Positions 30,804 through 58,491 of a DNA stretch of 64,000 nucleotides are shown piece by piece. How positions within the stretch are numbered: the stretch's first letter is position 1; each line of letters opens with the position of its first letter. The notes below the pieces were generated by a model. That model saw nothing but the letters and a program-made list of their open reading frames with translations, was not told the DNA's origin and did not search any database. The stretch is from Liolophura sinensis (Eukaryota > Mollusca > Polyplacophora > Chitonida > Chitonidae). The DNA lies in contig NC_088303.1 in assembly GCF_032854445.1 (NCBI RefSeq), positions 21,707,501 through 21,771,500 on the forward strand. The letters run 5' to 3'. Position numbers and translations under genes: made by a program.

Positions 30804-30804
30804 G

Positions 30805-36772: not shown

Positions 36773-37395
36773 TTTGCCCTGAGGACTGGAATACTGTATG
36801 TTCAAGAACTCTGGATGACTTCACTGTAAATCGCCCACGAAGATACTGCAAACGAACCGATAGCGGATTTGAGTCCAGTGGGCAGTGTATTACTTGTGAG
36901 TACCCACACACGGGATATAATGTGACATCACAATGTGTGACAGAACACAGCAGGTATTCCAAACCGGCTATTGCTGGATGGATTACAGCTTTACAAACCT
37001 TAATATTGTGATTTAAGTATTCTTAGTAAGTTGAGTATAGCGACAAAAAAACCCAAACAAGAACAACAAAAAAAGAACAAACAATCAAAAGCAACACACC
37101 AATAGTACGCTTCCTGCTTTAACTTTGTATCTGATCCTTCGCCGTTAAAGTGGTGCAGACAGCAACGCTTTATGACGATTTGGAATGCGGAAATAAGATG
37201 TTTACCTGTAAAAATATTTCCCAGCCATAAACTTTATCCTTTTTAAAGTCCCATTGATATAAATAGTTTTCAGCTGTCTAGTTAGCACTGTGATTTAATG
37301 AAATCCTATCATAGCTTGTGTTATACTTAATGCACGTTTTTCCTTCAGCCCCCATGGACATTTCTGGCAATGGATGCTGTGAGTTCGGCCGTTAA
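36773..37395 (+). pseudogene. 5'-truncated copy of the secreted Cys-rich peptide gene (exons 36773-36895, 37349-37395)
   Basis: The cysteine exon (acceptor TTTAAG, 123 nt, donor T|GTGAGT) and last exon (acceptor CCTTCAG, stop TAA 37393-37395) are open and keep all six cysteines with the family spacing x7, x15, x12, x11, 0. The C-terminus reads CCEFGR. The poly(A) signal AATAAA is at 37481-37486. The promoter block, non-coding exon and signal-peptide exon found in the second copy are missing because the 2.1 kb holding them is absent upstream. Compared with the second copy, the cysteine exon has nine substitutions, all changing amino acids. Either it is a dead fragment or it uses a distant first exon not recognised here. 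Confidence 0.7.
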
Positions 37396-37682
37396 ATTGG
37401 AAAATCAAAAACCTCATATCGGTTCAACATGATCGACAAATGGCCTTTCCAACTTTCCTTTTTTCAGCGTCACACCATGTAATAAAGTTATTCATACAAC
37501 AAAGACTAATGTTTTTCGATTTTAATTAATCGGCACTACTGACACCTTCGCTAAAACATAATGAATTATTATGTGAGTGATGTCTTGATAAATGGCGCAT
37601 ATAATAATAATTGATTGATTGCTTGACTGATATGCTGATTGATAGGTTCATTGATTTTTTAACTGCTCCACTGTTTTATTGA

Positions 37683-37913
37683 TTGACGTATTCATGGAGG
37701 ACAATGGTATACAATCTGAAAGGAGATAAATCTCTATCTTACTATTATCCATTTGGAAGGCCTGATCATGGTCTACGAATGTTAAAGCCTACGAATGACG
37801 AACGCTTACATTTACATCAGAGGTATGTATCGTGCTTAACTGAACGTGAAATATTTGAGGACCGTCTGATACATAACAGACGCGATGCTGATGATTATGG
37901 TGATATTGTTTAA
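37683..37913 (+). other. Small open frame shared by both duplicates
   Basis: 76 codons; its last ~57 residues (YYPFGRPDHGLRML.. to RRDADDYGDIV) are also open in the second copy at 50514-50699, with only a few differences. The last codons run into the 3' end of a SINE relic at 37934. No family was recognised, and recent duplication alone could keep both frames open. Confidence 0.25.
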
Positions 37914-37933
37914 TTGGAGTATTCAAGAACTCT

Positions 37934-38095
37934 TCACTTATACGACGATGACCAGCATTTTGATCTGAGCTCAGAGGAAATCCACGACCCTTCTACGTAC
38001 GACTGGAACTCAAAGCAGTTGTACTGGTGAGAGGTTCTTGTGACATTGTGCTGCGCTATTACACTAAGCACCAGAACACGGAGGTCTCGATGTTG
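37934..38095 (-). mobile_element. Worn SINE family A (first duplicate)
   Basis: CTTATACGACGATGACCAGC, GAAATCCACGACC, GTGAGAGGTTCTTGTGACAT and GCTGCGCTATTACACTAAGC follow the family A order, ending in a head-like CACGGAGG. The same relic is at 50716-50878, so it predates the duplication. Confidence 0.6.
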
Positions 38096-38669
38096 AATCT
38101 GTAGCAGAGTTTTGTCAATGTCTGAGCCCACAGATAGTGTGTGATCGTATACCGTTTTAACACAGCGATCTCTGGGGTTTTTTGACTTACCTTTTAAATA
38201 ATTTTAGACACTACCAATTGCGTTAATATTTTATCAAAAATTTCCATAAAAACTCAGACTTAAGGGTACCAACAAATTTTTGGAGGCCCATGACCGAGTT
38301 TATAATTAGATGAAAGGACCCACTATGGCGGGTACCAAGGTGTTTCACTTTTATGTCGTTCAATAGTTCTGTTTTAGTCTGTCCAGATTATTGTCTTCTT
38401 GTCAATGCTCTGTTTTACAAACGATTCACTTTAACACCGATAAGTCAAACGAAATTTCCATTTGATCTCAGATAACAGAGCAGGAACAATTTAATCAGAT
38501 GACACGCCTGGAGTCATGTCTAGTGCTATGGCCTCTTATTTATTCAGCACTGTGTATTTGTGTTGAGTCAATGGACTCGCCCTGCAGCCAGATAGCATGA
38601 CAAATGTGGATGGGAGTGACGTCAAACAAACTAAAACAATCACAAATTCATCAGAAAGATCCTCTGTAT

Positions 38670-39350
38670 TGTCAGATAATGCAGGCGGGAAACACACACT
38701 GCATGGATTTAGGGCATACAGCCCGAATCCTTCGCCTACCAGTTGTCAACCGTAATGGACGCCCGGGTCAATAAACAAGACCAATTTCCAAAACAACTTT
38801 CAACACAAACCATCAAAGAACTTAGAAAGTGTAAAGAGTATAAGAAATTAGGTCGGAGAGGCATGAAGAGAAACATTCAGCACTTTTAAAAAATGCTGGG
38901 AAGAAGAGAAAGAAATGTTTTATATGATGTTTTTATATAATGTTTTACTTAGTACTATCCTGGTATATAAGTTTATCACATGTACAACTCTTCATATATC
39001 CCAGGAGGAGATTTTATTCAGCAGAATGCGTATTTGTTCCCTAGCTTTTACAAGGCGATATTTGTACACGCCATATACACTGCCCATATAGTTATCCAAT
39101 TTTAGGATAAATAAAAATTTGTCAGAATTAAACAGGCTGTACCAGTTTGAATATCTAGTCACTTTTAATAAATGGTTTCCGCGAATTTTAAATACATGTT
39201 ACTGGAACAACTCAGTGAGCGACGAGACACCCTATGAATGGTAACTCAAGTGTGTAGGGGGCCTGAAAAAGGCTTTGTTGCCTTTCACGTCAATGTGACC
39301 GTGCAAGCCCTTTTAATTAAGCACACATCATGATGGGATTCTGTCAATTA
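38670..39350 (-). repeat. Fragment related to the RT element (copy 1 of 3)
   Basis: Contains on the minus strand GAAAGGCAACAAAGCCTTTT, which matches the RT-upstream region at 22790, and GTTTGTGTTGAAAGTTGTTT, which matches its 3' segment. Frames are broken. Sister copies lie at 44537-45230 and 51470-52150; each is followed by a SINE family B copy and a GGCCATTTTA-type block. Confidence 0.6.
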
Positions 39351-39365
39351 TAAGATAGTGATATA

Positions 39366-40916
39366 TACTACCAGGCAAAAGAAAGGTTTCACCCACTTCT
39401 TGAGCCCATAAAACAAAAACAAAGGCAGATATAAGAATTAAGAAGATTGGTTTATAAACAAGAATCATTGTGAAATATTCTCTCAAAAAGGCTTTAAAAT
39501 ATTGGCATTCAATTGGCCACAAAACGCAATGAAAGAGACAAGGGGTCAGAAGAAAAAATTACACAAATGTAAAGTTAACTGGCAAGTGCATGTAAAGTCA
39601 CAGTATCCACAGAAATGAAGGACTACAGTCATCAGTAGCGAGTGTGGCCATCCTAGGCATCAATGCAAGCAAGCACACGCCTCCGCATTGACGTCGTCAG
39701 TCGCCGGATGACGTCAACAGGGATAACGTTCCATAGGTTTAACAGAGCTTGCTCAAGTTCCTGTTGGTTAGTTGAAGGAGGCACCAGCTGTCTCAAACGG
39801 CGGTCAAGGTGATCCAAGAGATGCTCAATGGGGTTCATGTCTGTTGAGTTGGCTGGCCAGGGCAACACGATGACGTTTGCGGTCTCGAGGTAGTCTGTAA
39901 CAATGCGGGCAGTGTGAGGTCTTGCGTTGTCGTGTTGCAAGATCGATCCTCTTGGCTGTCGTTGGAGGAAAGGAACGACGACAGGTCTCAGTACCTCATC
40001 AACGTATCGCTGGCCAGTCAGATTACCTTGCACAATAACCAGCTGCGTCTTCATTTGGTCACAAATCCCTCCCCAAACCATGACGCCTCCGCCTCCAAAC
40101 GGATAAACCTCTCTTACGCAGTTTGGCGCGAGACGCTCGCCTCTTCGTCGGAAAATTCGAACTCTGCCATCGTTCCTGAATAGACAGAACCTGCTCTCGT
40201 CTGTAAACAGCACTCTCGCCCAGTCACGTCGCTGCCACCGACGTACAATACGTGCCCATCGCAATCTGCGTTGACGGTGTAAAAGGGTCAAGGCCATCCC
40301 ACGGAAGGGGCGGTAAAGTCGTAAACCAGCTGAACGAAGACGACGCAGTGTTGTTCTGGGGCTGATGACATGGCCTAGTGCCGTCGCCGCTGTTGACGTC
40401 GCCGTGACGAATCGGTTTCGGAGGTGGATCTGCCGGATGTAGCGATCTTCAGCCGCAGTTGTTACCCTCGGTCTTCCCGATCTTGGTCTGTCTTGGGTCT
40501 GGCCTGTCTGCTGATAGCGTATCAACAACCTCCTGATGGTGGTTTGGCTGCAGTTGAACGTTCTTGCAATGTGACGTTGCGAGACTCCCATGGTGGACAT
40601 ACCGATGGCCTGGTCTCGTTGCGCTTGCGTTGTCTTGGCATACTGTTTGTGTTTTTTCTGTCACTGAATGTCTGCTCTTTCGAGCAAGAGTATTTATGCA
40701 ACATTACTGCACGTGCATCACGAGCCATGCATCAAAAGGACGTTTTGCATGTGGTCGCAATTTCACATTTCCAATTGCTGCGTTCGTGACGATGCGTTCT
40801 GGTAGAGGAAACGATGCAGTCATACACTAAGTCCTGCTTAGAATCAAACCCGGAACCGCGCTTTTACTGTTTTTATGACAAAAAATACGGCGAAACCTTT
40901 CTTTTGCCTGGTAGTT
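39366..40916 (-). mobile_element. Tc1-like DNA transposon
   Basis: Perfect 23-bp terminal inverted repeats (CTACCAGGCAAAAGAAAGG then TTTC) lie at 39368-39390 and 40892-40914. They enclose the DD34E transposase at 39653-40600. The second duplicate has the empty site GTGATATAGTATGG at 52143-52156. Comparison places the insertion at a TA: TA at 39364-39365 on the left and CA (a mutated TA) at 40917-40918 on the right. Total length is about 1.55 kb, usual for the family. Confidence 0.92.
39653..40600 (-). CDS. Tc1-family transposase (DD34E)
   Basis: 315 residues. An N-terminal helix-turn-helix (SQRHIARTFNCSQTTIRRLL, then a second DNA-binding helix region with the RPRSGRPR hook) is followed by the catalytic triad: Asp in LFTDESRF, Asp in LQHDNARPH, and Glu in MNPIEHLL, with 34 residues between the second Asp and the Glu. 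A GGGGVMVWGG motif lies between. The frame's first ATG is at 40600, but an out-of-frame ATG at 40641 begins the usual basic start (PRQRKRN). A missing base near 40613-40618 would explain the split. The protein as it stands lacks about 15 N-terminal residues, so activity is doubtful. Confidence 0.9.
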   Translation of the reverse strand: MSTMGVSQRHIARTFNCSQTTIRRLLIRYQQTGQTQDRPRSGRPRVTTAAEDRYIRQIHLRNRFVTATSTAATALGHVISPRTTLRRLRSAGLRLYRPFRGMALTLLHRQRRLRWARIVRRWQRRDWARVLFTDESRFCLFRNDGRVRIFRRRGERLAPNCVREVYPFGGGGVMVWGGICDQMKTQLVIVQGNLTGQRYVDEVLRPVVVPFLQRQPRGSILQHDNARPHTARIVTDYLETANVIVLPWPANSTDMNPIEHLLDHLDRRLRQLVPPSTNQQELEQALLNLWNVIPVDVIRRLTTSMRRRVLACIDA

Positions 40917-40929
40917 CAGTATGGTATAT

Positions 40930-41180
40930 AGAGTGAGTAATTGTTTGTTTAACGTCATATTTAAAATTTCTTCAGCCATATGACGACGAAGGAATTCTTG
41001 CAGTGCGTGTAATGTGACTCCTTGTTGCAGGACGGATTTCCACCGTTCTTTAATCTAGTGCTGCTTCACTAAGAAGACTTGCCGAAGGCAAGTATACTGA
41101 TTTGGGTCAACCAGTCGTTGACCTTTAATGCTGAATGCCAAGCGAGGAAGTTGTAACCTCTTTTTTAAGGTCTTAGGTAC
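40930..41180 (-). mobile_element. SINE family B (first duplicate)
   Basis: GAGTGAGTAATTGTTTGTTT, CCATATGACGACGAAGGAAT, TTGCAGGACGGATTTCCACC, TAGTGCTGCTTCACTAAGA and GTCAACCAGTCGTTGACC; the tRNA-like end is cut off after TAAGGTCTTAGGT. The equivalent copy is at 52160. Confidence 0.75.
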
Positions 41181-41394
41181 CTGATAGCGGCCATTTTAGA
41201 ACGCAAACTTGGCGACCTCCATGCTTGCAGTTTAATTAAAACCGCGCCCTCCCCCATATTCTTGCCACCCCCGAACACGCGAAACCGTGCCCTCTGTGAC
41301 CTTCGTGTTCAAAATCCATTACGATTTAGGGAATAAATGTCAGTAATCCCGATTTAAAAATTCACAAAATATTTGTATATCTTGCATTGAAAAC

Positions 41395-42458
41395 TTTATT
41401 ACATCACGTGATGGAGATAGGAAGGAAACATATTATGGTCTTTTGTCGATTATGTTGAGCCGATATCAGGTTTTTCATTATCCAGCAATACAGCATCCAT
41501 TGCCAGAAATGTCCACGGGGGCTGAAAGAAATGCACATGAAATATAATAGATGTCATGGAAGTTTTCATTTCATCGATAGCTCTGTAAACTAGGAAGGAA
41601 AAGAATATTTACTGAAACCGAAAGCCTGTTTTTTGGTCCGTTAAATAACTTAACAGACTAAACAAGCAATACAAATATCTCCTTAAAGTATCGTTGTTTA
41701 ATACCCCAACAAAGAGGTCTAACAACACCAAGTCAAGGCAGTAAATGGTTGTACTGTTTTTGGATTGTGTGTTGTTTGTCGTCATACTAAGACAACAGTC
41801 AGGTTTTATGAAAGAATATATCAACTACCGCACCTTTACATTCTAGATGCCATTACGCGCGGTACCCTTAAAGCTGCAGTGTACCGATCCAGAGGATTTG
41901 GAATACCAGGTATTATACGATACTTGTGAAGGACTCGTTCGTTTGTAGTCAAGGATATGGCACTGCCCATATAACACTAGACGGCAGTGCGAGCTGATTT
42001 AGTTTGGCTGCCACACAAGGTGTCATGTTATATCCCGGGTTTTGAGTACTCACATGCAATACAATTCCCTTTGGCCACAAATCCGTCAAGGGTTCGTTTG
42101 CAATATCTTCGTGCACGATTTACGGTGAACTCATCCAGATCTCTTGAACACACCGTTGTCCATCCGTCCGGGCATCCGCCTGAAAGTAAAAATATGGCGA
42201 CTTTAGTAAAGAAAGAATGTATAAGTAAACATGAAAAAGAGCATACAATTCATTTAAAAAACATTTCCATTCCTTATTCGTAAACGGCGCAGACCATGTC
42301 CAAATCAACACAAATGCAACCGACCATGGAGTGAAAATTACTTTAGCCGTGACTGCCCATAAATGTGCGCCAATAAGTTAGACACACTAACCAGAACTCT
42401 CTGCCCACGTCATGGCAAGCACGCATACCAAAAGGGCCAAAAGGATCAGAGATCGCAT
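41395..42458 (-). CDS. Secreted six-cysteine peptide gene, minus copy 1 (exons 42458-42392, 42179-42054, 41521-41478)
   Basis: Predicted 78-residue precursor. The ATG exon (67 nt, MRSLILLALLVCVLAMTWAESS) is a clear signal peptide. After donor G|GTTAGT the cysteine exon (126 nt, acceptor TTTCAG, donor T|GTGAGT) carries four Cys. The last exon (acceptor TTTCAG) carries adjacent CC and ends IAG then TAA at 41478-41480. The poly(A) signal AATAAA (reverse) is at 41395-41400. All joins keep phase 1. Cys are at residues 25, 33, 49, 62, 74, 75, giving spacing x7, x15, x12, x11, 0. A leader exon ends at 42813 and the ATG exon starts at 42469. The last Gly suggests C-terminal amidation. No known family matches by eye; an immune, venom-like or signalling peptide are all possible. 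Confidence 0.82.
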
Positions 42459-42812
42459 CTTGGAGGATTCTGCAATGAAAGAAGGAAATTAAATACTGTC
42501 ATAGTTGGAAAACCGCTAATAAATCATTAAATTCTCTAAGCCCAAGAACTGTCTATTTGAGATCATTATTTAGTCACCGATGTCTTAAAAATAGTGTGTT
42601 TAAACCAATTTTAGACTAAGTATTTATCATTTACAGGTATCTTAACTTAAGTTCAGTGTTCAAAACACCCATTCATTCGATTGGTATTTAAAATAAACTA
42701 GACATATTTGTGCACAAGAGGGCAAATATGAATGGAACTTGATGTTTACATTAATATAAATGTTTAAAAATAACAAAGAAAATAAATATAAATTACAAGG
42801 TAAGATACTTAC

Positions 42813-42928
42813 GTGTGAGCTGTAGGACTTCTTGTCTGGCGAGGTCTGACGACAGGTGTCAGTGGATACCAAGAGACATCTTCACATTCGGTTATATCTA
42901 CCTGAAAACCGGATATTGCTCCTCCCAC
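42813..42928 (-). promoter_or_regulatory. Promoter and non-coding exon of minus copy 1
   Basis: The 38-bp block 42928-42891 reads GTGGGAGGAGCAATATCCGG, TTTTCAGGTAGATATAAC on the minus strand and ends in a TATA-like element. The leader exon runs from about 42865 to 42813 and ends at donor CACAC|GTAAGT. The intron to the ATG exon is 343 nt. Confidence 0.7.
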
Positions 42929-42929
42929 T

Positions 42930-44250
42930 CTCGACCTCTTAAATTAAATCTTTAAAATAAAAGGCCATTTAACTCCCCATGTTCCCAAAGGTCATCAGTA
43001 TCTAAGATCACAGCAATATTGCTTTTGTTTGTGGGTTTATCAGTCTCGACTCCTGTTTATGTCTTGGTACATATGTTTATCAAGATTTCAAGGAGGAGAT
43101 TATCTATCTATTCATCCTTTAGCTAAGGTGGTATATAAACATATTGTGGATTGCAGTAAAGATTAGGGGCACTCTCATATCCGAAGAAACAAAACAATTT
43201 CTCAGGTTAAATAAAATTTTTGCAAATTTTGAAACAGTAATTTATATACGTCTAAATCTTAAAACCATACTTCTGCAAAGGTTTAAGAAATATAACTTTA
43301 GAGATGGCTGTTTTTACACTGAGCCTATCTATTACAGACATCCATCTTTTCTTAAAACGTAGATGCAGTTTTGTTTGTGTATTTTCTCAAATAAATGCGT
43401 TCATGATATGAGACACGGGTATGAACTTTTCTATTTATGTTTTCATTCTTTATATATAACAAGAAAGAAATTCGGGATAAATGACACAGTTCTGTAGCAC
43501 GAAGAATCTTTGAAATATCTCCAAAGTGAGGACGTTTTTAGGCCATAGAAGGTTTGTTTTTCTCCCTCAGAATAAAAACACACAACATTGATGTAGAGAA
43601 ACTCATTTTTGCAAAGAACTTGTCCAGTAGATATCAATTATTTGCACTGTGTGGTGTTATCGTCTGATACAAGTGCGAGATGAAAACATTCATAGAATAG
43701 CTATATTGGCCTCTTGTGGAAATTTGATCCATGTCTGATACGACTGCATCAGTCTATCTAGGCCACACTTACTGCTAGCTGTGACCTTGTATTAATCATA
43801 AGTATCAGGAAATTGCACTTTTTTCTTCCTGTGAAGAAAGGCTTTCTATTCAAAGGAACACATTGTCACTTTACGTAAATTCGATTGTTACGCTCCAGCC
43901 AGATTACTGTTACGCTCAGACAATAATTTGTACATGAAGAAAATCACAATTGTTGACTGCATTAAATGGCATGTTTATATATCTGTTTTTAGATACGCGA
44001 AGACAAATTTCTTTTTGACAGCTGACGTAAATATCAAAATCAGCGCTTATTATGGATATATGGCACTAATAAAACTTGATTTCCGGGTACATGGAAGATA
44101 TTCAGAAGATCCAATGCAACAAGTCGATAAAATATCGATACTTGAAAACTGATGGTTACAGCTGTCGAGTGGCAATAACAAAGAACAGCTAGAGCATAAC
44201 GTAAAACAAACCTACCGGATCTCTACTGAAGGAACGTCATTGTTAATTTA
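42930..44250. other. Upstream region, duplicated, no further gene
   Basis: This 1.3 kb is repeated at 54251-55600. No second peptide exon was found. Short open frames are AT-rich and not conserved as frames between the copies. Confidence 0.45.
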
Positions 44251-44254
44251 TTTA

Positions 44255-44362
44255 CTTTTTTTATTAATTTATTTATTTTGTATTTTATGCCGCACTAAAG
44301 AATATTTCACTTACACGATTGCGGTCAGCATTGTCGTTGAAGGAAACCCTGCAGAAACCTGG
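44255..44362 (-). mobile_element. SINE family A, 3' portion (first duplicate)
   Basis: TTTTATGCCGCACTAAAGAA, TATTTCACTTACACGATTGC and GGTCAGCATTGTCG; the equivalent piece is at 55600-55712. Confidence 0.6.
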
Positions 44363-44365
44363 GGA

Positions 44366-44530
44366 GTGAGTGAGTGAGTGCTTGGGGTGCTCTTTTATCT
44401 AATGCTGCTTTACTGAGACGACTTACCGAAGGCAAGAAAGCGGCACCACCCGAGCGATTATACTGTTACGGGTCGTTGCACTTTCCCGTAGTGCTGAACG
44501 CCAAGCGAGGAAGCCCCAATTTCCTCTTAA
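44366..44530 (-). mobile_element. SINE family B, truncated (first duplicate)
   Basis: GTGAGTGAGTGAGTGCTTGG, TTTTATCTAATGCTGCTTTA, CCGAAGGCAAGAAAGCGGCA and AACGCCAAGCGAGGAAG, then it joins the RT-related fragment. Confidence 0.7.
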
Positions 44531-44536
44531 AGGAAG

Positions 44537-45230
44537 CTGTATTGTCACATAATGCAGGCGGGAAACACACACTGCATAAGTTTGGGGCATACAGCCGGAA
44601 TCCTTCGCATACCATTCGTCAACCGTAAATCCATCCGGGTCAATAAACAAGAACAATTTGCAAAACAACTTTCCACACAAACCACCAAAGAACTTTAGAA
44701 AGTATATAATGTATAAGAAATTAAGTCGGAGATATATGAAGGGAAACATTCAGCACTTTTAGAAAATGCTGGGAAGAAGCGCAAGGAATGTTTTATGCGC
44801 ATAAATGTAATTAGTGCAATGCTGGTATATAAGTTTATCACATACACATTCCAGTTGTACTTTGAATGCAACTCCTTATATATCAGCATAATGCGTATTG
44901 GTTCCTACGTTTTACAAGGCGATATTTGTACACGCCGTATACACGACCCATATTGCTATCCAATTAAAGACAATTAAAATATATCAGAATTGCACAGACT
45001 GTACTAATTGGAATACCTGGTCACTTTTAATAAATGGTTTCCGCGAAGTTTAAATACATGTTACTGGAACAACAGTGAACGACGAGACAACCTATGAATG
45101 ATAACTCAAGTGTGGAGTGGACCTGAAAAAGGCTTTGTTGCCTTTCACGTCTATGTGATTGTGCAAACCGTTTTTAATAAGCACAAATCATGATTGAATT
45201 CTGACAATTATAACATAGTAATATGGTATG
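44537..45230 (-). repeat. Fragment related to the RT element (copy 2 of 3)
   Basis: Same segment as at 38670 and 51470 (CATAATGCAGGCGGGAAACA to GGCTTTGTTGCCTTTCACG). More diverged than the other two from each other, so it dates from an older duplication. Confidence 0.6.
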
Positions 45231-45236
45231 GTATAT

Positions 45237-45725: not shown

Positions 45726-46900
45726 CAGAAAGATAATCACAACGCGGCTATAACGGGGTTTATATATGTAGTTGTCTCCCTTTATAAATCTCAGATACGC
45801 CCTGATCTGGAGGTCTTAGGGTAGACTGTTCAAAGATGGAAGCAAATTGGTAACACGCGGTTTCTATAACTAATGTTTATTTGCAATAATTGCATGTTGT
45901 GACTATGGCCTGACGGGTAATTGCAATTATTGGTGTCATTCAATGGGCCATATCATTATGTAATAAGCTATATCGCTGTGTAATGGGCGATATCAACGTG
46001 TAATGAGCTATATCACTCAGTTACCTTCACTCAGACAACATTCAACTAGATAATTTCCCCATTAAATGCAATTTTTTTGTCTTTTGATAATACATCAAAT
46101 AGTTTCTATTCATCACTATAACACATCTAAAAATGCAAAACTTGGAAGTGTGGATGAATATCAGAGAGACTGAAGTCGCTCCTCGGGTTCCTTCGACTTG
46201 GTGTATTAGTCGAAGACTGGTGTCCTACACCGACCACTGATCCACGTCCCGGTCCCTTTTGCGTTGGGATAGATCACACAGGAGTTCGTGTAGACATAAC
46301 TTACCACTCTGGAACATTTCCCAGTGTTTTTGCTCTGTCTCCGTTGTTACAACACATTAGCTAATATTTGGCCGAGTTGTTTTTGTTCACTTAAAAGCTA
46401 CATGCAGTTTCAACGGATAGATTGTGCATCATAAAGTGGACCCACCTTGGGACAGCACAATGGCGTAACTTAGAGAGGTTAGGTAACTCTATCCACGTTT
46501 TGCTTGGGGCGGTATCCTTTATTTTTTCTTCTAAACCGATCCTACAGATAAGCATCACTTAATTCCAGAATAACTTTTTGCCAGCAAAATAATATTTGAT
46601 CAGATAAATCTGAATCGCACGAAAGTTCACAAATTTCATATAGGATCCATCGTTCAAACGGCGATCAAAATTTTACACATTTCTTGTATTATACGTTTTA
46701 TGTATTCCACGTATCCAAGTTTTATTAAAACTATATATCAATGATAATAGTTGATATTGGGTAGTTCTTCATCAGTAGACAGGAAATTTGTCTTCGCTTA
46801 TCTGAAACACTTGCAGTTAAGGTGTGAACATTGGGTAACTTAAGTCTAAAAGTATATCAATCAAATTTAAACACACTGTCAATGTTTTTATGAATATATA
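45726..46900. other. Intergenic, nothing recognised
   Basis: AT-rich spacer between the duplicates. Short internal repetition of AT.ATCACTGTGTAATGGGC-like words lies at about 45950-46015. No exon of the peptide family was found on either strand. Confidence 0.4.
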
Positions 46901-47129
46901 TCATTTGTCACGGAGAGAAAGTGCAATTTCCTTACACTTAGGATTAATATAAGGTCACCCGATATATTATAAGCATCTTGTCCTGTGTACTTGAGTAGTG
47001 TGACAGAAAATTAAACTTGTCTACGTATAAATGTCCTCAGATTGATAATATTTCAAAAGATCAATGAGCTGTATTAGTTACGGTTTTCTTTTATGTTGTG
47101 TGTAAAGAAGAAAGACATAAACAAAGATG

Positions 47130-48370
47130 TTGGTACTCAAATGCCAAAGGTCAACTGTACAACGCAAAGTTTACAACGTGTCAAATATGTAAAGTTAAGT
47201 GTACAACGTTTAATGTACAACGCCATGCAAAGAACGTTATACAAACATCATCAAATGAACTGCGATACCTTGTTCTAAAACTCCTCCATATTTGCTGTGC
47301 TGATTTAAGCAACAGGACATGTAGACAACATCAAGTGTACAGCTATAAGTAAACACCAAGTGTAGACCACTTAATATACAACATCAAATATACAACAGTG
47401 AACAGTACTAAGGCCAAGTTTCCATCCAAATCGTTCGGTTTCTGAGCGAACACACAACAATAGCATTTAGTTGTTTAGTGTACACACCGTAATAACTAAT
47501 GAATTCATAAGTACTGAGAAGAGAATAACAATAATAAAATAACAAATAGAAACAAAAACATCGGAAAAGCCTAAACAGATAGCTTACATATCAGTCTACT
47601 TTGGAGCGCAGTGTATTCAAGCTGGAACTGATGTGGTTTTCCCGATGTATTCTAATGCAACAGCAGTAAAACATTCATCGAGAGTCCATGGTAACAAGAA
47701 TCAGCCTATTCTTTCATCACCTTATTGCTCCATACGATTTAGTTATACAGTAGATTTGGTGTACTACGCAGTACGTAAAAATTGATATTAAAAGTACTAT
47801 ATTTGGAATAATAATTTTTCTGTTATCATATAGGATTGTGGACGTTTTCTTTGAGAAAATATTTCATTAAATATTTTAAATACAAGCCAATAGTTGTCAA
47901 AAAGCTCTTCAAAACAACCCGGCATTACGCTATGGAATAGAATGGAACACTCGTCTTATTGCGCTTATGGTTGTTGCCACTGTGGGACAAACCATTAGAC
48001 AGGGGTGCTTCATAAAAGCTATCTATAACTTGTAGAACATAAGTCATCATAGCAGTATCTGTAATATTTACGCAAAGTACTAGACACACTGACCTGAGAG
48101 ATAGATCTGTTTCTTTTGATATGAATTTTTTCCTATCCTTCCTGCAATCGACAAATCACTAACACTGTTTTGATACACAACGTTAGCTGAAAAATAAATA
48201 GATAGAAAATCAGGTCATTGAAATGTTGTCAGACATCGGAACCAAGGCATGATCTGAGATGTGCTTGATAAATCCAAAACCAAGAACTATTTTGCTGTGA
48301 TCCCAAAGCCAGATGACCTTAAATGTGAGATATTAATGGCATTTTATTTCAAACATTTAATACAAGTGGT
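47130..48370. other. Region unique to the second duplicate, upstream of the peptide gene
   Basis: About 1.2 kb with no recognised gene. Near 47150-47400 the words TACAACG, TACAAC and GTGTAC recur irregularly, hinting at a very worn short tandem repeat. The frames 47093-47278 and 47098-47352 are products of it. Confidence 0.35.
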
Positions 48371-48375
48371 ATAGA

Positions 48376-48480
48376 GTGGAAGAAGCAATATCCGGTATTC
48401 GGGTATATATAACTACGTGGGAAGATGTCCTTTGGTCATTGACACTTCTTCAGACGTATCCAGACAACGAGTCCCACATT
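48376..48480 (+). promoter_or_regulatory. Promoter and non-coding exon of the + strand peptide gene
   Basis: The 38-bp block at 48376-48413 reads GTGGAAGAAGCAATATCCGG, TATTCGGGTATATATAAC, with the TATA box TATATATAA at 48404-48412. The leader exon probably starts near 48435 and ends at 48480 before donor GTAAGT. A GAAGATGTC..TTGG..TGACAC phrase follows the TATA box and is shared with the minus-strand copies. Confidence 0.75.
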
Positions 48481-48540
48481 GTAAGTATCTTACATTTACA
48501 TTTATACTTCATGTACTTGCATAGTTTTGAAACATTTTTG

Positions 48541-48760: not shown

Positions 48761-49072
48761 CACGACTACATTTCGCCAATGACGGGAAATTCTTTTACTG
48801 TTTACAATAGCTTTGTCTGTCGCATAAAATTTTTGGAATGTAATGTATTAATTCCTTACGAATGGATATTTCATATCTGCAAAGAGATGAACCAATTATG
48901 AAAATAATTTGAGCAAATAAATGTCGCACGTTTTTTAATCAGGTTTCAATTGTTACAAGTAATTACCATCAATTAAAAGACCGCTCACACAGGCCATTGT
49001 CAGTATTTATACAGACTGTTTTCCAAAGATGACAGTATTTAATTATCTTGTTTCATTCCAGAATCCTTCAAC

Positions 49073-50391
49073 ATGCGATCTCTGATCCTTTTCACCCTCT
49101 TCGCATGCGTCGTTGCCTTAGCGTTGGCAGAGAGTTCCAGTGAGTTACTTTATCTTATTATAAACATCCATCTATAGGCCGTAAAAAGTTAAACAATTCT
49201 TTTCTCTTTTTTAAAGAATTGGATTATATTGTCTATATAAGGAAAATAATACATATATTAGCACGAGCATATATAAATAGCAACCGTTGCAAAACGTAGT
49301 TTGGGATCAGATATTTCGCGGTTGTCTCATTTTCACAACCACAAAAAACTGAACCTGCACCGATAGACACACATAAACCACCACACGTTGTTCACTTCCA
49401 CGTGAAATTGCTGCGTTCACTATCCTCGTATGTAGTGTTATCCACATGTCAACGCTGTTTATCAGAAAAACAGGGTTGCATGAAACCTTAATTAAACGGG
49501 GCAACAATTTAAGACTGCTAACAGGTTTTCTAGCACCATGGAAATGGCGTTTAGTGGAATAGTCTCGATTGTGAAATTCATACTTTGGGCGATTAGTTTG
49601 CGAAGATGCAGAGTGCTGTCCACTCAAACCTATCAACGTAGTCAAGTGACGCAAAATTGGCAGTTCGCGAAGTTCAGATGGTGTCCAACAGGATGCGCAT
49701 TTCTGTTGACTGGGAACGTTTTGACTATATATCATGAATTCAGAATTACTTGCAAACCTGATGTCGGGAACCAGGTTTGCAAGAATACAGAGGTGTAAGT
49801 GTGGAAGCTAAAGAGCGAAAATTGAAATAATTCTTAGCCAACATTATACCTTTTTCTTCTTCCTACTTACCAAAAAGTCACCATATTTTTACGTTTAAGG
49901 TTGCCCTGAGGACTGGAATACTGTATGTTCAAAAGCTCTGGATGACTTCACTGTAAATCGCCCACAAAGATACTGCAAACGAACCCTTGGCGGATTTGTG
50001 TCCAATGGGCAGTGTATTACTTGTGAGTACTAACACACAAAAAAAACCCCAAAACAAAACAAAAAAAAACAACAAATAATCAAAAGCAACACACTAATAG
50101 TACACTTCCTGCTTTAACTTTGTATATGGATCCTTCGCCGTTGAAGTGGTGCAGACAGCAACGCTTTATGACGATTTGGAATGCGGTAATAAGATGATTA
50201 CCTGTAAAAATATTTCCCAGCCATAAATTTTATCCCTCTTAAAGTCCCATTGATATAAATAGTTTTCAGCTGTCTAGTTAGTAATGTGATTTAATGAAAT
50301 CCTATCATAGCTTGTGTTATACTTAATGCACGTTTTTCCTTCAGCCCCGGTGGACATTTCTGGTAATGGATGCTGTAAGTTCGGCCGTTAA
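49073..50391 (+). CDS. Secreted six-cysteine peptide gene, + copy (exons 49073-49139, 49900-50022, 50345-50391)
   Basis: Predicted 78-residue precursor, the best-preserved + strand member. The ATG exon (67 nt; acceptor TTCCAG before 49062) encodes MRSLILFTLFACVVALALAE.., a signal peptide probably cut after ALA or AES. Donor A|GTGAGT, acceptor TTTAAG; the cysteine exon has 123 nt and ends T|GTGAGT; the last exon follows CCTTCAG and stops at TAA 50389-50391. Phase is 1 at every join. Mature Cys are at residues 24, 32, 48, 61, 73, 74 (x7, x15, x12, x11, 0). The C-terminus CCKFGR offers Gly-Arg for trimming and amidation. The poly(A) signal AATAAA is at 50477-50482. The mature peptide of about 55 residues with three possible disulfides resembles antimicrobial or venom-type peptides in general form only; no named family fits the spacing. 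Confidence 0.85.
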
Positions 50392-50513
50392 ATTGGACCA
50401 TCAAAAACCAGATATCGGTTCAAAATGATCAACAAATGTCCTTTCCGACTTTCCTTTTTTCTGCGTCACACCATGTAATAAAGTTATTCATAAAACAATA
50501 AATCTTTGTCATT

Positions 50514-50699
50514 ATGCATTATCTCTACCATTATCCATTTGGAAGGCCTGATCATGGTTTACGAATGTTAAAGCCTACGAATGACGAACGCTTAGATTTA
50601 CATCAGACGCATATAACGTGCTTAATTGAACGTGAAATATTTGAGGACCGTCTGATACATAACAGACGCGATGCTGATGATTATGGTGATATTGTTTAA
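50514..50699 (+). other. Small open frame, partner of 37683
   Basis: 61 codons, sharing YPFGRPDHGLRMLKPTNDER and the ending RRDADDYGDIV with the first duplicate. It lies directly 3' of the peptide gene's poly(A) signal on the same strand. Unknown; possibly a chance frame kept by recent duplication. Confidence 0.25.
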
Positions 50700-50715
50700 T
50701 TAGAGTGTCCAAGAA

Positions 50716-50878
50716 TTTTTCACTTATACGACGATGACCAGCATTTTGATCTGAGCTCAGAGGAAATCCACGACCTTTCTACGCACGACTGGAACTCAAA
50801 GCAGTTGTACTGGTGAGAGGTTCTTGTGACATTGTGCTTCGCTATTACACTAAGCACCAGAACACGGAGGTCTCGATG
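50716..50878 (-). mobile_element. Worn SINE family A (second duplicate)
   Basis: Same relic as 37934-38095 (CTTATACGACGATGACCAGC and GTGAGAGGTTCTTGTGACAT). Confidence 0.6.
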
Positions 50879-51469
50879 TTGAATCTGTAGCAGAGTTTTG
50901 TCAATGATAAAACGCCTAGGGCGCAAATAGTGATAGTGTGTGATCGTATACCATTTTAACACAGTGATCTCTGGAGGCTTTTTGGACTCACCTTTTAAAT
51001 AATTTTAGACACTACCAATTGCGTTAATATTTTATCAAAAATTTCCATGAACACTAGGAACTAAGGGTACCAACAAATTTTTGGAGGCCCATGACCGAGT
51101 TTATAGTTAGATCAATGGGCCCACTATGGCGGGTACCAAGGTGTTTCACTTTTATGTCGTTCAATAGTTCTGTTTTAGTCTGTCCAGATTATTGTCTTCT
51201 TGTCAATGCTCTGTTTTACAAACGATTCACTTTAACACCGATGAGTCAAAGGAAATTTCCATTTGATCTCAGAATAACAGAACAGGAACAATGTAATCAT
51301 ATGACACGCCTGGAGTCATGTCTAGTGCTATGGCCTCTTATTTATTCAGCACTGTGTATTTGTGTTGAGTCAATGGACTCGCCCTGCAGCCAGATAGCAT
51401 GACAAAATGTGGATGGGAGTGACGTCAAACAAACTAAAACAATCACAAATTCATCAGAAAGATCCTCTG

Positions 51470-52150
51470 AATTGTCAGATAATGCAGGCGGGAAACACAC
51501 ACTGCATGGATTTAGGGCATACAGCTTGAATCCTTCGCATACCAGTCGTCAATGGACGTCCGGGTCAATAAACAAGACCAATTTCCAAAACAACTTTCAA
51601 CACAAACCATCAAAGAACTTTAGAAAGTATATAAAGTATAAGAAATTAGGTCGGAGAGGCATGAAGAGAAACATTCAGCACTTTTAAAAAATGCTGGGAA
51701 GAAGAGAAAGAAATGTTTTATTGAGGTTTTTATATAATGTTTTACTTAGTACTATCCTGGTATATAAGTTTATCACATGTACAACTCTTCATATATCCCA
51801 GGAGGAGATTTTATTCAGCAGAATGCGTATTTGTTCCCTAGCTTTTACAAGGCAATATTTGTACACGCCATATACACTGCCCATATAGCTATCCAATTAA
51901 GGATAAACAAAAATATGTCAGAATTGCACAGACTGTACCAGTTTGAATATCTAGTCACTTTTAATAAATGGTTTCCGCGAATTTTAAATACATGTTACTG
52001 GAACAACTCAGTGAGCGACGAGACACCCTATGAATGGTAACTCAAGTGTGTAGGGGGCCTGAAAAAGGCTTTGTTGCCTTTCAATGTGACTGTGCAAGCC
52101 CTTTTAATTAATTCATGATGGAATTCTGTAAATTATAAGACAGTGATATA
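51470..52150 (-). repeat. Fragment related to the RT element (copy 3 of 3)
   Basis: Near-identical to 38670-39350, ending at the empty Tc1 target. Frames are broken. Confidence 0.6.
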
Positions 52151-52159
52151 GTATGGTAT

Positions 52160-52413
52160 ATGGGGTGAGTAAGTGCTTGTCGCTTAACGTCATACTTAAC
52201 ATTTCTTCAGTCATATGACGACGAAGGAATTCTTGGAGTGCGTGTAATGTGACTCCTTGTTGCAGGACGGATTTTCACCGTTCTTTAATCTAGTGCTGCT
52301 TCACTGAGACGACTTGCCGATGCAAGTATACTGATACGGGTCAACCAGTCGTTGACCCTTAATGCTGAATGCCAAGCGAGGAAGTTGTAACCTCTTTTTT
52401 AAGGTCTTAGGTA
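52160..52413 (-). mobile_element. SINE family B (second duplicate)
   Basis: Equivalent of 40930-41180: CATATGACGACGAAGGAATT, TTGCAGGACGGATTTTCACC, TAGTGCTGCTTCACTGAGAC. Confidence 0.75.
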
Positions 52414-52702
52414 ACTGATAGCGGCCATTTTAGAACGCAACCTTGGCGACTTCCATATGGTCGTAGCTTTGTTAAAACGCCTAGGGCGCAAATGGCACGG
52501 GTTGCAGTTTAGTTAAAACCGCGCCTTCCGCCATATTCCTGCCATTCCGGAACACGCGGAACCGCGCCTTCTGTGACCTTCGTGCTCACGTGGAGAGCGC
52601 GCAACACCTAAAGGGCGTCATAATCCGTTATGATTTAGGGAATAAATGTCAATAATCCAGATTTTAAAATTCACAAAATATTGTATATCTTGCATCGAAA
52701 AC

Positions 52703-53784
52703 TTTATTACATCACGTGATGGAGATAGGAAACATATTATGAACAAATATATTATGATCATCTGTCGATTATGTTGAGCCGATATCTGTTTTTTCATTAT
52801 CCAGCAATACAACATCCATTGCTAGAAATGTCCACGGGGGCTGAAAGAAATGCAAATGAAATATAATAGATGTCCTGGAAGTTTTCACTTCATCGATACC
52901 TCTGTTAACTAGGATGGAAAATAATATTTACTGAAACCGAAGCTTAAAAAGCCTGTTTTTTATCCGTTAAATAACTTAACAGACGAAACGAGCAATACAA
53001 ATATCTCCTTAAAGTATCGTTGTTTAATACCCTAACAACGAGGTCTAACAACACCAAGTCAAGGCAGTAAATGGTTGTACTGTTTTTGGATTGTGTGTTG
53101 TTTGTCGTCATACTAAGACAACGGTCAGGTTTTATGAAAGAATATATCAACTACCGCACATTTACATTCTAGATGCCATTACGCGCGGGTACCAGTAAAG
53201 TTGCCGTACACCGATTCAGTGATAGAAGATTTATGTATTATACGTTACTTGTGAAGGACTCGTTCGTTTGTAGTCAAGCATATGGCACTGCCCATATAAC
53301 ACTAGACGGCAATGTGAGCTGATTTAGTTTGGCTGCCACACAAGGTGTCATACTACATCCCGGGTTTTGAGTACTCACATGCAATGCAATTCCCTTTGGC
53401 CACAAATCCGTCAAGGGTTCGTTTGCAATATCTTCGTGCACGATTTACAGTGAACTCATCCAGATCTCTTGAACACACCGTTGTCCATCCGTCCGGGCAT
53501 CCGTCTTAAAAGTTAAAACATGGCGACTTCAGTAATGAAAGAATGTACAAGTAAAAATGAAAAAGAGCATACAATTCATTTAAAAAACATTTCCACTCCT
53601 TATTCGTAAACGGCGCAGACAATGTTCAAATCAACACAAATGTAACCGACCGTGAAGTGAAAATTATTATAACCGTGACTGTCCATAGATGTGCGCCAAT
53701 AAGTTAGACACACTAACCAGAACTCTCTGCCCACGTCATGGCAAGCACGCATACCAAAAGGGCCAAAAGGATCAGAGATCGCAT
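52703..53784 (-). CDS. Secreted six-cysteine peptide gene, minus copy 2 (exons 53784-53718, 53504-53379, 52840-52797)
   Basis: Duplicate of the 41395-42458 gene, also 78 residues with the same signal peptide and the same cysteine spacing. The coding exons differ by five substitutions, three of them silent; the replacements are one Gly to Asp at the exon junction and one Gly to Ser in the last exon. The cysteine exon uses acceptor TTTTAAG in place of TTTCAG. Stop TAA is at 52797-52799 after IAG, and the reverse poly(A) signal is at 52703-52708. It is convergent with the + strand gene at 49073. Few replacement changes suggest that both minus copies are still under constraint. Confidence 0.8.
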
Positions 53785-54133
53785 CTTGCGGGATTCTGCA
53801 ATAAAAGAAGGAAGTTAAATACTGTTTGGAAAACCGCTAAAAAGTCGGTAAATTCTCTAAGCCCCAGGGCTGCCTATTTGAGATCATCATTTAGTCACCG
53901 ATGTCTTAAAACTAGTGTGTTTAAACCAATTTTAGACTAAGTATTTATCATTTACAAGTATCTTAACTTAAGTTCAGTGTTTAAACCACCTATTCACTTC
54001 GATAGGAATCTGAAATAACTACACATTTATGTGCACAAGAGGACAAATATGAATGGAACTTGATGTTTACATTAATATAAATGTTTAAAAACAACAAAGA
54101 AAATAAATATAAATTACAAGGTAAGAAACTTAC

Positions 54134-54249
54134 GTGTGAGCTGTAGGACTTCTTGTCTGGCCAGGTCTGGCGACAGGTGTCAGTGGATACCAAGAGACAT
54201 CTTCACATTCGGTTATATCTACCTGAAAACCGGATATTGCTCCTCCCAC
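54134..54249 (-). promoter_or_regulatory. Promoter and non-coding exon of minus copy 2
   Basis: The 38-bp block at 54249-54212 appears identical to that of minus copy 1. The leader exon ends at 54134 with donor CACAC|GTAAGT. Confidence 0.7.
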
Positions 54250-55599
54250 TCTCGACCTCTCAAATTAAATCTTTAAAATAAAAGGCCATTTAACTTCCCA
54301 AGCCCCTAAAGGTCATCAGCATCTAAGATCACAGCAATATTGCTTTTGTTTGTGGGTTTATCAGTCTCGACTCCTGTTTATGTCTTGGTACATATGTTTA
54401 TCAAGATTTCAAGGAGGAGATTATCTATCTATTCATCCTTTAGCTAAGGTGGTATATAAACATATTGTGGATTGCAGTAAAGATTAGGGGCACTCTCATA
54501 TCTGAAGAAACAAAACAATTTCTCAGGTCAAATAAAATTTTTTGCAAATTTTGAAACAGCAATTTATATACGTCATACTTCTTGAAATCATACTTCTGCA
54601 AAGGTTTAAGAAATATAACTTTAGAGATGGCTGTTTTTTTCACTGCGCGTAACTATTACTGACATCCATCTTTTCTTTAAACGTAGATGCAGTTTTGTTT
54701 GCATATTTTTCCCAAATAAATGCGTTCATGATATAGTCAGACACGGGCATGAAGTTTTCTATTTATGTTTTCATTCTTTATATATAACAAGAAAGAAATT
54801 CGGTATCACTGACACAGTTCTACAGCCCAAAGAATCTTTGAAATATCTCCAAAGTGAGGACGTTTTTAGGTCATAGAAAGGTTTGTTGTTCTCCCTCAGA
54901 ATAAAAAAACACAATATTGATGAAGAGAAACTCATTATTGCAAAGAGCTTGTCCAGTAGATATCAATTATTTGCACTGTGTGGTGTTATCGTCTGATACA
55001 AGTGCGAGATGAAAACATTCATAGAATAGCTATATTGGCCTCTTGTAGAAATTTGATCCATGCCTGATACGACTGCATCAGTCTATCTAGGTCACACTTA
55101 CTGCAGGCTGTGACCTTGTATTAATCATAAGTATCAGGAAATTGCATTTTTTTCTTCCTGTGAAGAAAGGCTTTCTATTCAAAGGAACACATTGTCACTT
55201 TACGTAAATTCGATTGTTACGCTCCAGCCAGATTTGTGACTCTTCAAATCTTGGGGAGCTCAATAATTTGTACATGAAAAAAATCACAATTGTTGACTAC
55301 ATTGAATGGCACGTTTATATGTCTGTTTCCAAAAGATATGCAGACCAGATCAATAAACAATAGTGTTTGTCAAAAGATTAATTCAAATTTTTAGATACGC
55401 GAGGACAGATTTCTTTTCGACAGCACTAATAAAACTTGATTTCCGGGTACATGGAAGATATTCAGAAGATCCAACGCAACAACTCGATCAAATATTGACA
55501 CTTGAAAACTGATGGTTACAGCTTTCGAGTGGCAATAACAAAGAACAGCTAGAGCATAACGTAAAACAAACTTACCGGATCTCTACTGAAGGAACGTCA

Positions 55600-55962
55600 T
55601 TATTGATTTATTGATTTATTGATTTATTTAATTATTTATGCCGCGCTCAAAAATATTTCACTTATACGACTGCGGTCAGCATTGTCGTTGAAGGAAACCC
55701 TGCAGACCCCTGGGGAATGAGTGAGTGCTTGGGGTGCTCTTTTATCTAATGCTGCTTCACTGAGACGACTTGCCAAAGGCAAGTAAGCGGCACCGCCCGA
55801 GCCATTATACTGTTACGGGTCGTTGCACTTTCCCGTAATGCTGAACGCCAAGCGAGGAAGCTGCAACTTCCTCTCAAAGGTCTTAGGTGTGACCTGATTC
55901 AGTATTGATCCTGGGTGTACCGCCCGAAAGGCCTCTGAGGGGGGGGGGGGGGGGGGGGGGGG
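55600..55962 (-). mobile_element. SINE A fragment, SINE family B and (G)24
   Basis: A family A 3' piece (about 55600-55712) abuts a family B copy (about 55715-55938) that ends at its tRNA-like part in a run of 24 G (55939-55962). The first duplicate has the same SINE junction but not the G run. Confidence 0.65.
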
Positions 55963-55964
55963 TG

Positions 55965-56840
55965 GTAATTACAATCCGCGGATTGCTCCAACTCCTCCCC
56001 AAGTACAACTGGCTCTAGCCCTCCGTGTCCAAGCTTGCGAAAGTTAAAGGGTTACCCCCTCCCAAAAAAATCGTTGGACTTCACGTTGGCAATAAATTAT
56101 CCTAGAAAGTGTACATCTGCTTAAAATTCAATAATATATTAGCAAAATACATACATAAGTTGTGACAACGTAGGTGGATGTGCCAGAGAAACAAATTGCA
56201 GGTGTCGGGGCAGTGGTAATCGTGGGTCGGGATGACAGAGTAGTCTCCTCTGTCCTAGGAGGATAACCTATTGTGATGGTTCCCGTGGGTGCCAAGAATA
56301 AGATCTAAGCTTACTAGGTAAACTTGACGTAAAAGACGACGGACGTATAGATATAATAGGTTTATCGCACAATGCCCGATGTGATGTTCAACCAACCTAT
56401 ATTGGTCACCTCTGTTCACTTTGTCCATGTTTGCTGAAGCCTCTTCCCACTTGACAGTCAAGTTTGACAACAGAGCATATTGAAGAATATTGTTTACAAA
56501 CTGTATATTTAATGTGGTGTTTGAATTTTTCTTTCTTTTTTTGTCCTAATATTTGATGATATTGTTTTATATTATAAAATCTTTCACTATTTTCGAGCTG
56601 ATGATCTGTACCAAGAGTACATTTGGAAATTTGGTAAATTTATCCTGAAATACACATCGTGAAGAGCAAGAACAATGCCAAGGTTACCAGCTTCACAGTG
56701 ACACTACCACTGATTTGGAAGAGGAGTGATATATGCCGCCATCCCTATTCTTTTACCCTTTACTGAACGCACAGTGGGTGTCGTCAAGACTACAACGACA
56801 TAACCAATATATTAAGACTCCACAAAACATCCCATGTCTT
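55965..56840. other. Intergenic, nothing recognised
   Basis: No gene or known repeat. The 71-codon minus frame at 56255-56470 has no recognisable features. Confidence 0.35.
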
Positions 56841-56849
56841 CAGTGCACA

Positions 56850-58491
56850 ACTTTATTGTACATGATGTGCTGGAGAAAATGGAATGATGTGGAGAAAATG
56901 GAGAAAATGGATGAAATAAAAAATATTCCATTCCGTTGCGGTGCTAAAGTAAGAAGAAAAGAAGTAGAATTTTACGTCTATATACGTATTTTTATGAAAA
57001 AGGTTGCTTACTGTGTTTCGAAAACTGGATCACCATATAACCAGTGATAAATCGATGTCATTTTTTAAAATCATATTAAACTTACGTATATAGAGAGTCA
57101 TACACCGTGCGTAGACCATCATGCATGTCTCAAGTGATCAAGAATACCCAACCATTTGTTCATTTTCAGAACTTGCGGAGGGGCGCTCTCCGCAACAAAA
57201 GCAGGTTTCCATTCACTTTGAAGTAATTCTAAATTCAAATCACGACCAATTATACGGACAAGAAGGCGCAAGAAGCCATAATCATCTAAAGTTTCATATA
57301 ACCTGGTTTTCCTGAAACATAACTTTGACATGGTAAGGATCGCACTGTCGAAACCATGGGGTTCCATTCAAGTGAAAGTGAAACGGAAGCTGAGAACATG
57401 GTCAAGCCTGTAATACATCACCATTCATACATGGACGTTAACCGGAAGTTTGTGACCAAGCCATGGCGACAACGTACGCGAAGAGGGCGAAGTGTATCAG
57501 ACATAGCATCTTCAAAGATTCTGGAAAGGAAAAAGATAATTAAACTCTGTTATTCTTACCATGCGACTTAATTTTTTCAGTGATTTTCAGATGAAATATG
57601 TTTGAAAGATGTTTCTTCTTTTCGCAAAGTACAAAAAAAAATTTCTTGATAAGGAATTAATAAACATTCGGTATGTTTTAGATGACAGACAAAATTCGAT
57701 TTAAACGAGTGAACGTTTATTTCATTGGCGAAATGTATTCAACATTTTCCAAGAAAGTATGCAACGCGTGGATTTATGTAGGTTACAGCGTATCCAATGT
57801 CTTATCTCAAAATGTATTTGTAGGTTATAACTATGCATGGTGTTCATTGTAAACTTAATTGCTTTATAAATAAAGATTATAATTCAAAAGAATAACTAAT
57901 CTCAGTCAACCAAGTCACTTAATTTAAGTGTACACTCTGGAAAGGACGCCTGAAGTTACTAGACAATTGAGACCTCTATTGGCACCATGTAAGCTATCAG
58001 TTACCCACATGTGTTTTTGACACTGTTGTATCTTAAATCAGGAATAGAGGAATATTAATTTAATCCTAGGTCAGTAAACATACACCCCCTTCCATTACAC
58101 TGCAATTTGAAATACGCTACATTCACATGTATTTCCAAACTAGGTGGGCGCTAAGGCATACACGGAACGTGATGTTTACAATTATGTGCTTAAAAAAGGT
58201 AAATTATCAGATTTTGAAGACAAAACTACATTTATTGGGTTTGCCAATTTCAGGGCTTTCATACAGTACAGTTTTATCAGTCTACACAAAACAATGCCCT
58301 TAGAATATGCTTGGATAAACACCTTGACAACATGCGAAAAGGTTCAGGAATTACAGTGTGTATACTATGTAATATAGGATCCGTACGTTGCAGGGTTTGT
58401 TTTTGGGATCTACCTCTGTGGGTATTAAGACATTTTGTGAATCAAGTTGTACATGTATATATACCCGAATACCGCATATTGCTTCTTCCAC
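56850..58491 (-). pseudogene. Decaying fifth member of the Cys-rich peptide family
   Basis: The promoter block is well preserved at 58491-58454 (GTGGAAGAAGCAATATGCGG, TATTCGGGTATATATACA). The ATG exon (57509-57443) has the family length of 67 nt, an acceptor TTTCCAG and donor G|GTTAAC, and encodes a signal-like MLCLIHFALFAYVVAMAW... At the expected cysteine-exon position an acceptor GTTTCAG (57312) leads to a sequence that, in phase, stops after about nine codons and has no cysteines. A worn last-exon candidate after CTTTAG (56944) also lacks CC. A poly(A) signal in the family context (CATGTACAATAAAG) is at 56857-56852. It may be dead, or now make a different short secreted product. Confidence 0.6.

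Follow-up and report, generated by a model that had tools for sequence, protein, structure and literature searches.

Split genes for a family of predicted secreted, six-cysteine and likely amidated peptides, possibly defensin-like, in the chiton Liolophura sinensis

In beta-defensins the cysteines are joined in the pattern 1-5, 2-4, 3-6 and the loops between them are about 4-8, 3-5, 9-13 and 4-7 residues long, a glycine two positions before the fourth cysteine (G-x-Cys4) is a defensin feature, and the CS-alpha-beta (cis-) defensins are marked by the motifs C-x3-C and C-x-C. For big defensins, most genes are reported to open with a non-coding exon; a phase-1 intron and amidation at the C-terminus are reported too, as is a big defensin transcript from another chiton (PMC7203481). 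A cluster of small split genes was analyzed in a 64-kb stretch of the L. sinensis genome (C9:21707501-21771500, contig NC_088303.1), called the window below, and 609,464,459 bases in 632 contigs were searched for further copies. The predicted genes are best read as encoding a new family of amidated secreted peptides rich in disulfides. Their cysteine order, C-C-C-C-CC in all ten copies that have both cysteine-containing exons, is that of defensins (PMC4364940). A tentative reading, held at somewhat below an even chance, is that these genes would encode secreted six-cysteine peptides, likely amidated, which are likely defensin-like defense effectors outside the cell.

The copies in the window are labeled A to E, those on C12 F1 to F5 and the one on C11 G1. 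All gene models are predictions, in which exons, splicing and promoters were read from the DNA letters. Genes B, C and D have the full predicted anatomy: a TATA box, a leader exon, a signal exon of 67 coding nucleotides (nt), an exon with four cysteines (Cys exon), an exon with Cys-Cys (CC exon) and AATAAA. Upstream of each lie a TATA-like box and a leader exon whose donor is GTAAGT, the introns are GT-AG and all in phase 1, and each gene gives one open precursor of 78 residues, of which 2 differ between B and D. The preliminary description of this DNA had proposed five loci of one design, with a 67-nt signal exon, a Cys exon of 123-126 nt, a CC exon and phase 1 throughout. This was borne out for B, C and D; copy A (36773-37395) consists of the Cys and CC exons only, and remnant E (57443-58465) of a TATA-like box, leader and signal exon only. 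The three copies it took as intact are indeed B, C and D, and the convergent pairs are A/B and C/D; only C/D is an intact pair, and B and C lie head to head. The features of the three intact genes are as follows.

Gene B, signal exon to stop 42469-41478, minus strand
42892-42902, minus strand: TATA-like box (GGTAGATATAA); it belongs to the block, running from GAGTGG, that B, C, D and E have conserved
42813-42870, minus strand: non-coding leader exon, 5' end approximate, 3' end at the GTAAGT donor
42392-42469, minus strand: second exon; 11 nt of leader precede the ATG at 42458, which opens 67 coding nt of signal peptide
42054-42179, minus strand: Cys exon, 126 nt, cysteines 1-4
41478-41521, minus strand: last coding exon, 44 nt, CC then I-A-G and stop; AATAAA starts 78 nt past the stop
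Gene C, signal exon to stop 49062-50391, plus strand
48402-48412, plus strand: TATA box (GGTATATATAA)
48434-48480, plus strand: non-coding leader exon, 5' end approximate, GTAAGT donor
49062-49139, plus strand: signal exon, 67 coding nt, ATG at 49073
49900-50022, plus strand: Cys exon, 123 nt
50345-50391, plus strand: last coding exon, 47 nt, CC then K-F-G-R and stop; AATAAA starts 86 nt past the stop
Gene D, signal exon to stop 53795-52797, minus strand
54213-54223, minus strand: TATA-like box (GGTAGATATAA)
54134-54191, minus strand: non-coding leader exon, 5' end approximate, GTAAGT donor
53718-53795, minus strand: signal exon, 67 coding nt, ATG at 53784
53379-53504, minus strand: Cys exon, 126 nt
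52797-52840, minus strand: last coding exon, 44 nt, CC then I-A-G and stop; AATAAA starts 89 nt past the stop

Alignment of B and C, which lie in opposite orientation, gave 81% identity over the signal and Cys exons (142 and 160 nt), 74% over the last exon with its 3' flank (157 nt) and 71% over the leader and promoter (464 nt), and in the rest of the introns there was no match of at least 40 nt at E ≤ 1e-3. The likeness of B and C lies in the exons, not in the introns, and is beyond chance. RNA sequencing data exist for five tissues of this chiton species, namely digestive gland, foot, gill, gonad and heart (PRJNA973839; PMC11068029).

Common to B, C, D and E is an upstream block, GAGTGG(A/G)AG(A/G)AGCAATAT(C/G)CGGT(A/T)TTC(A/G)GGTA(G/T)ATATA, which is better kept than the leader and may be a putative binding site for a common regulator:

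42892-42950, minus strand: upstream block of B
48355-48412, plus strand: upstream block of C
54213-54270, minus strand: upstream block of D
58455-58510, minus strand: upstream block of E

A 50-residue query from the Cys exon of B matched ten places in the genome, namely A to D, five on C12 and one on C11. The five C12 matches, at 14.385-14.440 Mb, share 45-53% identity with B (E from 2.3e-9, at 45% identity, to 0.0016), and the C11 match 36% (E 2.5). With a query derived from C12, which returned 16 rows, the C11 copy improved to E 0.0039, and further C12 matches were found at 9.55 Mb (a pair of adjoining rows whose frames differ) and at 21.04, 21.17, 21.22 and 21.28 Mb, all of them decayed or partial; a third Cys-exon query returned 10 rows and no new places. 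These searches score the best candidates only, and the copy counts are lower bounds. The four closely alike decayed or partial Cys-exon copies at C12:21038397-21277048 are spread across 240 kb, which suggests an additional segmental duplication of what appear to be dead copies.

For each copy at 14.4 Mb on C12 (F1 to F5, C12:14.383-14.441 Mb) a signal exon was chosen on the 5' side and a CC exon on the 3' side, giving precursors of 84, 76, 82, 81 and 81 residues, and G1 (C11:32.179-32.183 Mb), with its CC exon (LGTLIDANECCRFG, then stop) and a signal exon, gave one of 92 residues. Phase 1, a hydrophobic start and CC were search conditions in these six models, and most exons had two or more candidates, among which the choice was made by splice site and likeness among the copies; the signal exon of G1 is the second of four candidates and has a weak donor, GTAATG. 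Comparison of the C9 and C12 upstream stretches by BLAST revealed no shared promoter, the sole match (B with F2) falling at the signal exon. These models support a split-gene family whose predicted products are secreted peptides with six cysteines, with at least ten copies that have Cys and CC exons on three chromosomes, and the peptide family first described from the window is extended accordingly, with purifying selection among its C12 copies.

Over the ten copies the spacing is C-x7-C-x15..17-C-x10..12-C-x11..12-CC. The constant spacing described earlier holds for A, B, C and D, which are identical (7-15-12-11-0), and does not hold outside the window, where loops 2, 3 and 4 vary in the C12 and C11 copies. 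In a nine-row alignment of A to D and F1 to F5 the invariant positions are the six cysteines, a Trp four residues after Cys1, Phe-Thr, a Lys after Cys3, one Gly, an Asn two residues before CC, and the terminal Gly. G1 retains the cysteines, Trp, Lys, Asn and terminal Gly and is without Phe-Thr. G-x-Cys4 is present in eight of the ten copies (not F4 or G1). The precursors range from 76 to 92 residues and end after the CC exon, and with the assumed signal cuts 2-15 residues precede Cys1, with no dibasic site.

All ten models close with CC-x2-G, which a stop follows either directly or after a single K or R. The individual tails read CCIAG (B, D), CCKFGR (C), CCEFGR (A), CCTLGK (F1), CCYVGK (F2), CCEYGK (F3 to F5) and CCRFG (G1). 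A Gly before the stop, optionally with Lys or Arg, is the usual donor of a C-terminal amide, and from these endings the family peptides are likely to be amidated at the C-terminus. The G-(K/R)-stop ending was overlooked in the preliminary description. It was no search condition; it is free of any choice in A to D, and choice by likeness may favor it in F1 to F5 and G1. Given the assumed signal cut, F2 to F5 begin with Gln, which would likely cyclize and leave a predicted blocked N-terminus. Net charge is +7 in F1 and +5 in F2, and from -1 to +1 in seven of the nine copies counted.

Selection was estimated as the ratio of nonsynonymous to synonymous rates (dN/dS) by Nei-Gojobori count, over the mature part only. 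The ratio was 0.05 for F4-F5, 0.02 for F3-F4 and 0.03 for F3-F5 (dS saturated in both F3 pairs), and purifying selection is evident among these three C12 copies. In the window it was 0.10 for B-D (three synonymous and one nonsynonymous change), 0.42 for B-C and 0.39 for C-D, and synonymous sites were saturated in most C9-C12 pairs.

Several of these features bear on the main rival explanation, that the peptides act as signals. As hormones, pheromones or attractants associated with eggs, they would be secreted and bind a receptor, perhaps via the amidated CC-x2 end. We regard a signaling role as rather unlikely. An amidation signal in ten of ten models, the likely blocked N-terminus of F2 to F5, near-neutral charge in most copies and mature dN/dS values of 0.02-0.05 in C12 would all suit a signal, but recent duplications, a truncated copy, a remnant and decayed copies elsewhere are unusual for a hormone, and the precursors hold no dibasic-flanked peptides. 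In addition, the available parts of two molluscan neuropeptide surveys contain no like precursor (PMC8398477, PMC6425005); according to the latter, from 2019, systematic work on peptide signaling was lacking for the chitons as a class. Chiton peptides in general are little studied.

Defense, at the body surface or in the hemolymph, would be the likeliest role, with slightly less than half of the probability assigned to it. Transcription would start at TATA promoters and be followed by splicing, the signal peptide would be cleaved and the product exported, the six cysteines would fold into three disulfides, and Lys or Arg would be trimmed from the tail so that Gly could donate the C-terminal amide; the mature peptide would then act outside the cell as a defensin-like effector. 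This role is proposed because of the defensin-like cysteine order, G-x-Cys4 in eight of the ten copies, the local duplications with their lost and decayed copies, and the positive charge of F1 and F2. A number of observations weigh against it. Loops 2 (15-17 residues) and 4 (11-12) exceed beta-defensin lengths, no Pfam defensin model matched up to nine members at E ≤ 10 (with weak matches mostly filtered), and the near-neutral charge of seven of nine copies is unlike that of classical cationic defense peptides. Strong purifying selection in C12 suits a hormone as well, the structure model of the Cys exon is poor (predicted local distance difference test 58.6, predicted template modeling score 0.28, two short strands), and phase and CC in the six C12 and C11 models are partly built in and do not count as independent evidence.

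The local duplication and decay can be followed in the broken copies A and E:

36773-36895, plus strand: Cys exon of A, 123 nt, with its cysteines retained; neither a leader nor a signal exon was found upstream of it
37349-37395, plus strand: last coding exon of A, in which CC is followed by E-F-G-R and a stop; AATAAA lies 86 nt past the stop
58387-58465, minus strand: TATA-like box (58465-58455) and leader of E, with altered donor GTACGG
57443-57520, minus strand: signal exon of E, with ATG at 57509 and an open frame over its 67 coding nt; neither a Cys exon nor a CC exon was found to go with it

Self-comparison of the window revealed a duplication in direct order, whose units, 36140-44533 and 49248-55880, are 89-94% alike over long blocks; unit 1 contains A and B, and unit 2 contains C (from inside intron 1) and D. 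Compared with the sister unit, the sequence ahead of A lacks about 2.1 kb, leader and signal exons included, since 35762-36019 matches 46867-47138 (87%) while 36140 onward matches 49248 onward. The former match also indicates that the duplication extended further upstream than the long blocks of the units. A and C differ in the mature part by 10 nonsynonymous and 2 synonymous changes (dN/dS 1.46), consistent with relaxed constraint. For E, a Cys exon was sought in 55881-57441, and the best match scored 31, against 25-44 in 20 shuffles. The open phase-1 signal exon of E lies upstream of D and its Cys exon (53379-53504), both on the minus strand, and one might speculate that gene D could use it in place of its own first part.

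The decay of A and E also raises the question of whether the window is a dying outpost, with its copies unexpressed and only the C12 genes functional. Two of its five copies are broken, and mature dN/dS reaches 1.46 for A-C and 0.42 for B-C; against this, B, C and D retain the TATA box, splice sites, open frames, all cysteines and AATAAA, and of the four changes separating the mature parts of B and D three are synonymous. We consider this explanation highly improbable.

A Tc1-like element with matching ends (ACTACCAGGCAAAAGAAAGGTTTC) at 39366-40917, with an open transposase frame of 335 residues (39653-40660, minus strand), is present in unit 1 and absent from unit 2; it was either inserted after the duplication or cleanly lost from unit 2. 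A run of about two dozen G (55940-55963) adjoins the end of unit 2. Elsewhere in the window, a 702-residue open frame (28751-30859, minus strand) contains glycosyl hydrolase family 31 domains in a single stretch without an intron, and a 178-residue open frame (22036-22572, minus strand) looked retroelement-like by eye and had no match in Pfam.

The suggestion that this six-cysteine secreted family may be undescribed fits with the searches made here. No match at E ≤ 10 was found in a set of 5.8 billion proteins, a weak absence given that the animal content of the set was not established. Pfam gave nothing credible at E ≤ 10 for up to nine members, with filters that remove most weak matches, and no credible match was found among PDB sequences or, for the window, in Rfam. 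None of 11 peptide strings was found in the literature, most subscription journals being outside the scope of that search. Big defensin PF14862 had no match in this genome, which is uninformative since no control genome matched either. Several weak hits were taken as chance: Glyco_hydro_4 (two of nine members, best E 0.0054), and Ground-like, Allexi_40kDa, zf-CGNR, Phage_holin_3_3 and Ac76 (at most two members each). Four PDB matches of a first profile (E 0.13-1.3) either involved a trafficking protein of no relation or fell largely within the signal peptide. If the predictions hold, these several genes, which share a fixed cysteine order and a conserved amidation signal and are unmatched in the collections searched, would represent a new peptide scaffold.

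Other kinds of secreted effector, such as a protease inhibitor, a structural peptide of eggs or mucus, or a toxin-like deterrent, would also be small, disulfide-rich and duplicated, as this family is predicted to be, and a cone-snail venom peptide, as25a of conotoxin framework XXV, has the order C-C-C-C-CC (PMC4278219). The likeness to as25a is one of cysteine order alone, which is no evidence of kinship. The family has no sequence match to any such effector family in Pfam or PDB sequences, and this explanation appears unlikely, more so than signaling.

One further possible likeness is to the N-terminal hairpin and first helix of the C-type lectin domain, with a C-P-x-G-W opening and three cysteines that may stand in register. 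The sole PDB match of the exon-2 and nine-row profiles was the start of a C-type lectin-like chain, at E 3.8 and 2, which is not significant. Profile comparison by hhalign of nine family members (D left out as near-equal to B) with 14 lectin exons picked from 120 genome matches aligned cysteines 1-3 in register at a probability of 8.5% and scored 19.7, above all 30 column-shuffled controls (highest 16.2), column shuffles being the only controls. The first loop of the family, 7 residues, is shorter than in the lectin exons of this genome that were compared, the second half of the domain is absent from precursors that end after the CC exon, and Pfam Lectin_C was not among the family matches at E ≤ 10. 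These data give a weak hint that the N-terminal half of the family may be related to the C-type lectin domain. It is a long shot that a chiton superfamily arose in which the lectin opening hairpin and helix were reduced to a free six-cysteine peptide with a new CC exon and an amidation cap, spread over three chromosomes as a defense arsenal, its defensin-like order being independent.

Compared with beta-defensins, the family loops (7, 15-17, 10-12 and 11-12 residues) fall within the ranges given above at loops 1 and 3. The spacing is nevertheless unlike that of beta-defensins, as had been proposed, with loops 2 and 4 too long; the cysteine order is nonetheless that of defensins (PMC4364940). 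Neither of the CS-alpha-beta motifs occurs in the mature part of the ten models. The family lacks the hydrophobic N-terminal domain and the dibasic-ended prodomain of big defensins, and unlike both beta- and big defensins it has an extra phase-1 intron before CC and mostly neutral charge. Loop lengths, charge, absence of a prodomain and absence of a profile match thus place the predicted family outside the beta- and big defensins, while its gene layout and likely amidation remain comparable to those of the big defensins (PMC7203481).

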